A DNA stretch of 64,000 nt from Streptomyces sp. NBC_01707 (GTDB taxonomy: Bacteria; Actinomycetota; Actinomycetes; Streptomycetales; Streptomycetaceae): contig NZ_CP109190.1 of NCBI RefSeq assembly GCF_041438805.1, forward strand, positions 6,944,001 through 7,008,000, in the 5' to 3' direction. This document shows positions 54,144-55,373 of the stretch, piece after piece (the stretch's first letter is position 1; each line of letters opens with the position of its first letter). The translations under genes and the position numbers were made by a program. The notes beneath the pieces are model-generated. The model was not told where the DNA came from and made no database searches. It saw nothing but the letters and a program-made list of their open reading frames with translations.

Positions 54144-54359
54144 ATGGCAAGCGTGTTGGTGCTGCTCGGTGGGCTGTTGGCGTTGATCGTCGCGCTCGTC
54201 GTCAAGCTGCAGCTGAAGGCGCGGCGCAGGACCGAGAACTTCGACGGGCAGGAGATCGAGCGGCAGGCCCGCGATGCGATCCGGCAGACTCGCGCGGACA
54301 ACAGCTCGGCCGCGGTCCACAACCGGTTCCTCGACGGCGGTAGCGGCCGCCGCCCTTGA
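54144..54359 (+). CDS. Small single-span membrane protein (71 residues)
   Basis: MASVLVLLGGLLALIVALVV is one membrane helix, followed by a charged cytoplasmic region (KLQLKARRRTENFDGQEIERQARDA..), helical and rich in Arg/Gln. GGGGG lies 4 nt before the ATG. I do not know the family. It lies between the second terminator and the structured leader. Confidence 0.65.
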   Translation: MASVLVLLGGLLALIVALVVKLQLKARRRTENFDGQEIERQARDAIRQTRADNSSAAVHNRFLDGGSGRRP

Positions 54360-54409
54360 CCGGCCGTCCACGCGTACGGCCCGTGGCGGGAGCCGGGACT
54401 CGATTCCGG

Positions 54410-54560
54410 TAGTGTTGCCGACCCCAGCACGGGGACATACCGAGGAGGTGAGACCCATTACCGCTGTATCAGGCTGGGTGCTCACCTCTCGCGATTGCGT
54501 GGTCGGACCGGTATAGGCGGACCGCGGAGCACCCATCGGCTTCCCGAAAGGCTCCGCTCC
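54410..54560 (+). promoter_or_regulatory. Structured 5' leader of the PrmC-related gene
   Basis: A -10 box TAGTGT (54410-54415) would start a leader of about 140 nt. Hairpin 1 pairs 54445-54456 with 54476-54488 (GAGGTGAG/CTCACCTC plus ACCC/GGGT, one bulged G). Its left arm holds the Shine-Dalgarno AGGAGGTGA (54443-54451). Hairpin 2 pairs GCGGAGC (54524-54530) with GCTCCGC (54551-54557) and touches the gene's own GAAAGG site. I do not recognise a known riboswitch class. Confidence 0.5.
54457..54516 (+). CDS. Possible 19-residue leader peptide with ATT start
   Basis: AGGAGGTGA, a near-perfect complement to the 16S rRNA end, is followed after 5 nt by ATT and an open frame of 19 codons (second to last residues TAVSGWVLTSRDCVVGPV) ending in TAG. 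The alternative is GTG 54448, in the same frame but overlapping the ribosome site. ATT starts are rare, so translation is unproven. The peptide ends 45 nt before the PrmC-related gene. Confidence 0.35.
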   Translation: MTAVSGWVLTSRDCVVGPV

Positions 54561-55373
54561 ATGTCGCTTTCCTCCACACCGCTCCCTTACTCCGTCATCG
54601 TCACCAGACTTCGCGCCGCCGGCTGTGTATTCGCCGAGGACGAGGCGGAGTTGATCCTCTCCACGGCCGCGGACCCGGCCGAACTCGCCGCCATGGTGGA
54701 CCGGCGGACAGCCGGTCTGCCTCTCGAACACGTCCTCGGCTGGGCCGAGTTCCGCGGTCTGCGGATCGCGGTGGATCCCGGAGTCTTCGTCCCCCGGCGC
54801 CGTACCGAATTCCTCGTAGACCAGGCCGTCGACCTCAGCCGTCCGGCGGACGGGCCCGCCGTCGTCGTCGATCTGTGCTGCGGTTCGGGTGCGCTGGGTG
54901 CCGCGCTCGCCGCGGCCCTGGACCGGGTCGAGTTGCACTCCAGCGATGTCGAACCCGCCGCGGTGCGGTGCGCGCGACGCAATGTCGCCGGTGCGGGAGA
55001 GGTGTACGAGGGCGACCTTTTCGAACCGCTGCCCGCGTCGCTGCGCGGCCGTGTCGGGATTCTGCTCGCCAATGTGCCGTACGTCCCCAGCGAGGACGTC
55101 GAACTCCTGCCCGCGGAGGCCCGGGTCCATGAACCGAGGGTGGCGCTCGACGGCGGGGACGACGGGCTGGATGTGCTGCGCAGAGTGACCGCCGAGGCGC
55201 CTCAGTGGCTGGCGCCGGGCGGACATCTGCTGGTCGAGACGAGCGAACGGCAGGCGGCGCGGGCCGAGGAGACCGTCGCCCGGAGCGGACTGACGGCGCG
55301 GGTGGTCACCTCCGACGAGCTGTACGCCACCGTCGTCATCGGCACCAGACCCGGTACCGGACACGGAAGCTAG
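54561..55373 (+). CDS. PrmC-related SAM-dependent N5-glutamine methyltransferase-like protein
   Basis: A 270-residue methyltransferase of the PrmC-related group with unknown substrate. The N-terminal helical domain includes RTAGLPLEHVLGWAEFRGL and VDPGVFVPRRRTEFLVDQA, equivalent to the PrmC R-PETE region. SAM motif I is VVVDLCCGSGALGAALA. The active-site motif is NVPYVPSEDVE, not NPPY, the main difference from true release-factor methylases. The usual prfA neighbour is absent, which supports a paralogue. GAAAGG lies 9 nt before ATG 54561, inside hairpin 2 of the leader. Confidence 0.87.
   Translation: MSLSSTPLPYSVIVTRLRAAGCVFAEDEAELILSTAADPAELAAMVDRRTAGLPLEHVLGWAEFRGLRIAVDPGVFVPRRRTEFLVDQAVDLSRPADGPAVVVDLCCGSGALGAALAAALDRVELHSSDVEPAAVRCARRNVAGAGEVYEGDLFEPLPASLRGRVGILLANVPYVPSEDVELLPAEARVHEPRVALDGGDDGLDVLRRVTAEAPQWLAPGGHLLVETSERQAARAEETVARSGLTARVVTSDELYATVVIGTRPGTGHGS

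Follow-up and report, generated by a model that had tools for sequence, protein, structure and literature searches.

In Streptomyces sp. NBC_01707 the gene for a PrmC-related methyltransferase is preceded by a conserved leader in which a short upstream open reading frame (uORF) begins at ATT behind a strong Shine-Dalgarno (SD) sequence, and in which two sets of pairings exclude each other, one of them hiding the ribosome site of the gene. The leader is found upstream of 80 of 96 Streptomyces TIGR03704 genes, in regions chosen by the protein alone, and ATG, GTG or TTG starts the leader frame in none of the 80; its relatives before other genes start mostly with AUG or GUG. This anatomy, a uORF with its own SD and exclusive folds, fits translational attenuation. 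We put slightly better than even confidence in the reading that the leader is a ribosome-operated translational attenuator whose AUU makes the wait at the start codon long or dependent on IF3.

Anatomy and conservation of the leader

In the window, by which we mean the whole 64,000-nt stretch of DNA analysed, all parts of the leader lie on the forward strand. The leader SD, AGGAGGTGA (54443..54451), is presumably a match to the 3' end of 16S rRNA, and its columns are mostly invariant or nearly so across 64 leaders. The spacer GACCC (54452-54456) separates it from ATT (54457-54459), the start of the leader ORF (ITAVSGWVLTSRDCVVGPV, 54457..54516), which runs for 19 codons to a TAG at 54514-54516. 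The methyltransferase gene follows (54561..55373, ATG at 54561, 270 aa) and scores 424.9 bits against TIGR03704, with a cut-off of 248.8. The sequence-only reading had reported the strong SD, a 5-nt gap, ATT, 19 codons and TAG, and these coordinates hold. Upstream, hexamers resembling TAGTGT or TAGGGT precede PrmC-related leaders (among the 22 of 66 leaders listed), and TAGTGT at 54410..54415 is the likely -10 element of the window's leader promoter; a generic sigma-70 scan of the leader region of the window found no promoter.

Four segments make up the pairing elements: segment 1 (GAGACCC, 54450..54456, with pairing that extends to 54447), segment 2 (GGGTGCTCAC, 54476..54485), segment 3 (CGGAGCACCC, 54525..54534) and segment 4 (CCGAAAGGCTCCG, 54544..54556), the last of which contains the SD of the gene, GAAAGG (54546-54551). 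Segments 2 and 3 each have two possible partners, 1 or 3 for segment 2 and 2 or 4 for segment 3, giving either 1:2 together with 3:4 or 2:3. The minimum-energy fold of 54425-54565 (-60.9 kcal/mol, z = -2.20, equalled by 3 of 200 shuffles) pairs the leader SD with 54476-54488 and covers GAAAGG with a second hairpin, so that both hairpins drawn earlier, on the leader SD and on the ribosome site of the gene, recur in it. That the leader exceeds chance follows from its conservation in the 80 orthologues and its recurrence before other genes rather than from the modest z-score, and its retention excludes a chance hairpin. An intrinsic terminator or transcription attenuator was excluded as well, since 54300-54620 holds no terminator-like site. 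No covariance model of Rfam 15 matched the window or 11 related loci, and none matched 54380-54620 even at E ≤1, which excludes a known Rfam RNA as the identity of the leader.

The protein-anchored set comprises 96 of the 97 TIGR03704 genes in 101 Streptomyces genomes (G008, a partial match at a contig edge, was left out) and takes in leaders with strongly diverged flanks. In the remaining 16 of the 96 upstream regions, judged by eye, no usable leader was found. Conservation of the SD, the ATT frame and the pairings in orthologous leaders was the check proposed for the sequence-only reading; all are conserved in the orthologue alignments and the protein-anchored set, which supports its view of an AUU-started short ORF with a refolding SD as a candidate translational attenuator. 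A BLAST search with the leader of the window matched in 44 of 61 Streptomyces genomes, and an RNA model of the PrmC-related leaders matched at E ≤0.01 in 95 of 101.

Two loci depart from the common layout. At L225 (G057), segments 2, 3 and 4 are retained while the leader SD and start region are unrecognisable. At L205 (G481:C1:9030801-9031048), two adjacent RNA-model matches precede a single methyltransferase gene and may stem from duplication or splitting of a leader.

Start codons, reading frame and downstream genes

The 80 leaders of the protein-anchored set start with ATT (61), ATC (17), ATA (1) or CTG (1), so that a conserved non-canonical start stands behind a strong SD in every one, as in infC-type control. 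The protein tree of the TIGR03704 set implies 14 start-codon changes, none to AUG, and at least 8 for the ATT group on its starred branches alone. A pattern scan of named genomes with an open start codon returned at least 117 loci with ATG (66), ATT (37), ATC (7) and GTG (7) and no other codon among the matches listed. The start codon played no part in the choice of either set, and the two may share species; another 31 loci came from BLAST by likeness to the AUU leader, which biases them toward it, and exclude L001, a duplicate of L003.

Across Actinobacteria, the genes downstream are those of PrmC-related methyltransferases, FAD monooxygenases, alpha/beta-hydrolases, GNAT and patatin proteins and one Sir2-domain protein. 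We set the gene classes of 148 loci by BLAST clusters and short motifs; NCBIfam was run on four hydrolases (L002, L037, L055, L072) and, from the monooxygenase, GNAT, patatin and Sir2 classes, on a single member of each. PrmC-related genes (66 loci) have leaders starting with ATT (59), ATC (6) or ATA (1), FAD monooxygenases (32 loci) with ATG (31) or GTG (1), and GNAT genes (9 loci) with ATG (5) or GTG (4). The hydrolase leaders start with ATG (21), GTG (2), ATT (2) or ATC (1), L110 in this class being probably a monooxygenase; those of patatin genes start with ATG (2) and those of other genes with ATG (2) or ATT (1). Ten loci had no predicted gene (ATG 6, ATC 2, ATT 2), and two of these, L098 and L129, precede hydrolase-like frames on reading. 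When 28 hydrolases were placed in a tree, four of the five rows with ATT or ATC formed one supported clade (SH-aLRT 96) that covers Asanoa, Thermocatellispora, Streptomyces and another actinomycete. The fifth, L098 (Parafrankia), whose coding frame appears incomplete, falls elsewhere on a long branch. The one FAD monooxygenase tested passes the model for rifampin monooxygenases, NF033145 (834 bits, cut-off 800). An ATT-led leader before a gene for a 614-aa Sir2-domain protein (L124, 3731-5572) is the only case met of that downstream gene.

AUG and GUG interchange within one branch of the family, and AUU, AUC, AUA and CUG within the other. Such exchanges are what one would expect of selection on the strength of a start codon rather than on an RNA motif. 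Since the PrmC-related leaders have weak starts and their relatives mostly AUG or GUG, the start codon itself may set the response of the switch.

AUU, AUC and AUA are also the codons of isoleucine, and a GTG lies in frame 9 nt upstream, inside the SD, so that the AUU could be merely a conserved isoleucine codon in a frame begun at that GTG. We find this very improbable: in the window that GTG is not preceded by a separate, spaced SD, relatives carry AUG or GUG exactly at the AUU position, and one orthologue has CTG (leucine) there. An untranslated leader acting as a sensor of some protein, metabolite or ion, with AUU as part of an RNA motif, would suit the long near-invariant stretches, loop positions included, and the members whose frame shifts after codon 4. 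It is nevertheless an improbable account, because the site holds only AUG, GUG, AUU, AUC, AUA and CUG in the counted sets, sorted by gene or clade, and because the frame that stays open is that of the start codon. Among the non-AUG leaders, 62 of 69 have the end of this frame 0-25 nt ahead of segment 3, and the other two frames end there in 17 and 6 of the 69; among the AUG/GUG leaders the numbers are 65 of 65 for this frame and 0 and 24 of 65 for the other two. All these counts come from related sequences and are hence not independent. With SD, start-like codon and open frame all conserved, the uORF appears translatable.

The frame shift after codon 4 in some members suggests that the peptide tail is probably not what is read, and it excludes a peptide-specific stall late in the leader. 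It had also been speculated that slow termination at the UAG of the leader feeds back on the gene, with PrmC activity, through release-factor methylation, setting the rate. The enzyme does belong to the wider PrmC/HemK group. Against the PrmC model TIGR03534, however, it scores 181.6 bits with a cut-off of 199.1, and the same genome has a separate PrmC gene (C1:3750465-3751211, 242.3 bits), which together exclude the window gene as PrmC. The leader stops of the 80 orthologues vary as well (TAG 43, TGA 34, TAA 3), and genes of unrelated enzymes carry the same leader. The feedback loop is thus unsupported, and we give it next to no credence.

Alternative pairings, modelled ribosomes and a proposed mechanism

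The pairings were evaluated in alignments of 64 of the 66 PrmC-related leaders (A1) and of 69 of the 72 other leaders with a predicted gene (A2), which leave out identical rows, starts more than 150 nt away and L143. The 1:2 helix is paired in 87.8% of cells in A1 and 99.2% in A2; in A1 it is near-invariant, and 52 of the 64 leaders have a mismatch at one position. Taken together, 1:2 and 3:4 are paired in 89.2% of cells in A1 (slid controls, 32-54%) and 93.2% in A2, and 2:3 in 95.0% (slid controls, 45-70%) and 97.2%, respectively. In A1 the main 3:4 helix (90.1% of cells paired) contains three pairs changed on both sides, and the inner helix one more. Covariation of 2:3 is weak, with one pair changed on both sides in A1, a number equalled by 57 of 500 shuffles, and none in A2. 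The leader has the mark of an attenuator, namely mutually exclusive pairings of which one hides the ribosome site of the gene, and because segment 2 is able to pair with either the SD side or segment 3, the two hairpins can be understood as parts of one switch.

In the mechanism that we propose, free RNA would be off, with 1:2 burying the leader SD and 3:4 burying the ribosome site of the gene. A 30S or 70S at the leader start would mask segment 1 and leave segment 2 free to form 2:3, which would break 3:4 and turn the switch on. A ribosome that had advanced to about codon 5 would mask segment 2 and restore the off fold, and since a ribosome translating the leader would meet the stop just short of segment 3, it would not enter the switch. 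With the footprint assumed, segment 1 can be masked while segment 2 stays free at two ribosome positions alone, the start codon and codon 2, so that arrest at initiation should be the on signal.

We modelled these states at 30°C with an assumed ribosome footprint of -15 to +16. For the 64 PrmC-related leaders, the probability of 2:3 was 0.19 in free RNA, 0.70 with a ribosome at codon 1, 0.76 at codon 2 and 0.00 at codon 5, and that of 3:4 was 0.55, 0.21, 0.15 and 0.66, respectively; 17 of the 64 miss a 2:3 probability above 0.5. For the other-gene leaders, a ribosome at codon 1 leaves 3:4 at 0.94 at equilibrium, and 2:3 reaches 0.93 only in nascent RNA; according to the model, a ribosome-dependent switch would need co-transcriptional folding there. 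The mean cost of opening the ribosome site of the gene in 65 PrmC-related leaders was 15.9 kcal/mol free, 13.4 at codon 1 and 17.2 at codon 5 (13.5, 7.6 and 16.7 kcal/mol in the window). A ribosome at codon 1 lowered the cost by more than 0.5 kcal/mol in 48 of 65 PrmC-related leaders and raised it in 10, and lowered it as much in 60 of 70 other leaders and raised it in 5, with mean drops of 2.5 and 3.6 kcal/mol. Shuffling segment 2 shrank the difference between codon 1 and free from -2.51 to -0.95 (PrmC-related) and from -3.56 to -1.12 (others); more than half of the opening effect, not all of it, is removed, and part is therefore unspecific.

Exposure of the SD of the gene hardly moves between free RNA and a ribosome at codon 1: its mean unpaired probability goes from 0.312 to 0.326 in 65 PrmC-related leaders and from 0.617 to 0.603 in 69 others. 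In the window it drops from 0.431 to 0.253, counter to the simple model. Since the helix probabilities of the PrmC-related set and the opening cost respond and SD exposure does not, the modelling supports the pairing logic and leaves the strength of its working uncertain.

Leader and gene could also be coupled by re-initiation gated by IF3: the rare ribosomes that initiate at AUU would reach the leader stop, disturb 3:4 and restart at the gene, and the AUU would act as a throttle. The leader stop has the required proximity to segment 3 (0-25 nt in the proportions given above), it lies 44 nt from the start of the methyltransferase gene in the window, and ribosomes have been proposed to re-initiate after short leaders in actinobacteria (PMC4833913). 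Coupling leaves the conserved 2:3 pairing unexplained, however, and placing a ribosome at the stop brings no gain in the modelled exposure of the SD of the gene (0.279, compared with 0.312 in free RNA, for PrmC-related leaders; 0.472, compared with 0.617, for the others). We consider it unlikely.

For attenuation operated by a ribosome at the leader start, the two branches of the family should differ in what turns the switch on. Leaders with AUG or GUG should be on only when a drug or stress has halted ribosomes at the start codon; lincosamides, pleuromutilins and streptogramin A are reported to cause start-codon arrest on uORFs with Streptomyces ribosomes (PMC12421871). In the AUU and AUC leaders of the PrmC-related genes and one hydrolase clade, a codon disfavoured by IF3 behind a very strong SD would make departure of the 30S slow, and the length of the wait would depend on initiation itself, through IF3, initiator tRNA and free 30S, rather than on a drug alone. 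IF3 is reported to repress the non-canonical GTC start of Streptomyces sigR (PMC5472188), and by analogy its discrimination could itself prolong the stay of the 30S at AUU. We suggest, tentatively and as less likely than not, that the start codon is the sensor, and that AUU or AUC turns a detector of antibiotic arrest into a gauge of the state of initiation, tying the methyltransferase to initiation fidelity. The switch would then stay open while a 30S remains parked on the hyper-strong SD, held back from leaving by IF3, initiator tRNA and the supply of 50S.

Related systems, promoters and spread

The translational attenuators ermC and cat have leader peptides. Non-AUG starts are usually put down to accident or to the throttling of a single protein. 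Like ermC and cat, and like the toiL-topAI system of E. coli, where tetracycline and retapamulin are reported to stall ribosomes at the toiL start codon (PMC12121999), the leader has a uORF with its own ribosome site and a structure that hides the ribosome site of the gene. It departs from them in its modelled responsive site, the start codon with codon 2, in a frame that can shift after codon 4, and in the conserved non-AUG start of one branch. The Streptomyces ARE5 ABCF attenuators tiaA and are5sc are similar in that Streptomyces ribosomes are arrested at the start codon of a short uORF, but they are described with terminator and anti-terminator folds and differ in genes and sequence (PMC12421871), whereas the window leader lacks a terminator-like site. 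Conserved weak start codons under IF3 discrimination are described for infC and sigR in Streptomyces (PMC5472188) and for cvfC1 and ccpN in S. aureus, there together with an extended SD (PMC13009471). In those accounts the weak codon begins the regulated protein, whereas here it begins the leader ORF of a switch. The S. aureus report, of 2026, of extended SDs with AUU or AUA protein starts (PMC13009471) is a close precedent for the pairing of a strong SD with a weak codon. In the open-access literature, judged mostly by title and abstract opening, we recognised neither a description of this leader nor an attenuator uORF with a conserved non-AUG start. The family offers a natural paired comparison, with AUG or GUG before genes of antibiotic-inactivating and other enzymes and AUU or AUC before PrmC-related genes and one hydrolase clade, that bears on whether start-codon identity sets what a uORF senses.

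The signature of WblC/WhiB7 regulon promoters is GAAAWY, TKGMNN, TANNNT (PMC7157823). Our own loose form of this pattern, with the non-AUG leaders as sole control, occurs before 52 of 72 AUG/GUG leaders, as in the regulon, and before 1 of 74 non-AUG leaders. Because so many of its members follow such a box, the AUG branch appears to belong to the response to translation inhibitors. Judged by the same boxes, AUU leaders are under another promoter, and no such box was seen upstream of the leader in the window. For the monooxygenase leaders we considered the rifamycin-associated element, which according to a review has a different promoter layout (PMC10719064; PMC8655204), a comparison by described layout. 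In 10 of the 16 orthologues with no usable leader (L260, L261, L263, L265, L266, L268-L272), the methyltransferase gene directly follows an Eis-like gene; the one neighbour tested has a C-terminal SCP2_2 domain and matches Eis-type NCBIfam models below their cut-off. In S. coelicolor, eis genes are reported to be activated by WblC (PMC7157823). The Eis-like neighbours are a hint at a role of the methyltransferase in antibiotic stress. The leader, for its part, would tie the PrmC-related enzyme family to translation stress.

The genome of the window contains a second copy of the leader, found by genome search, and a third, found by the RNA model of the PrmC-related leaders, with ATG and GTG starts, each before an alpha/beta-hydrolase-like gene. 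The third copy (L152, G000:C1:8972920-8973046) is of a subtype, GGAGGTGGTACCC, with a GTG start before its hydrolase-like gene, and the subtype occurs in several other genomes. A weak match in the same genome, L153 (E 0.0455), was dropped, its centre having no leader SD.

Rfam 15 has no entry for this actinobacterial RNA family, and the leader set can serve as a model for finding further members. The 80 pattern-scan loci with titles listed include members of Streptomyces, Nonomuraea, Amycolatopsis, Rhodococcus, Micromonospora and Mycolicibacterium, and a model built from the other-gene leaders (R1) matched, under strict filters, in 17 of 396 sampled genomes of the phylum. A monooxygenase leader is matched by 43 plasmid records, 32 of them from Streptomyces, and several of the 20 records listed are annotated as rox or hydrolase. 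At monooxygenase loci including L041, L056 and L099, the protein has an N-terminal extension of ~35 residues that resembles the start of leader-bearing hydrolases, as though the leader and the first codons had moved together from gene to gene.
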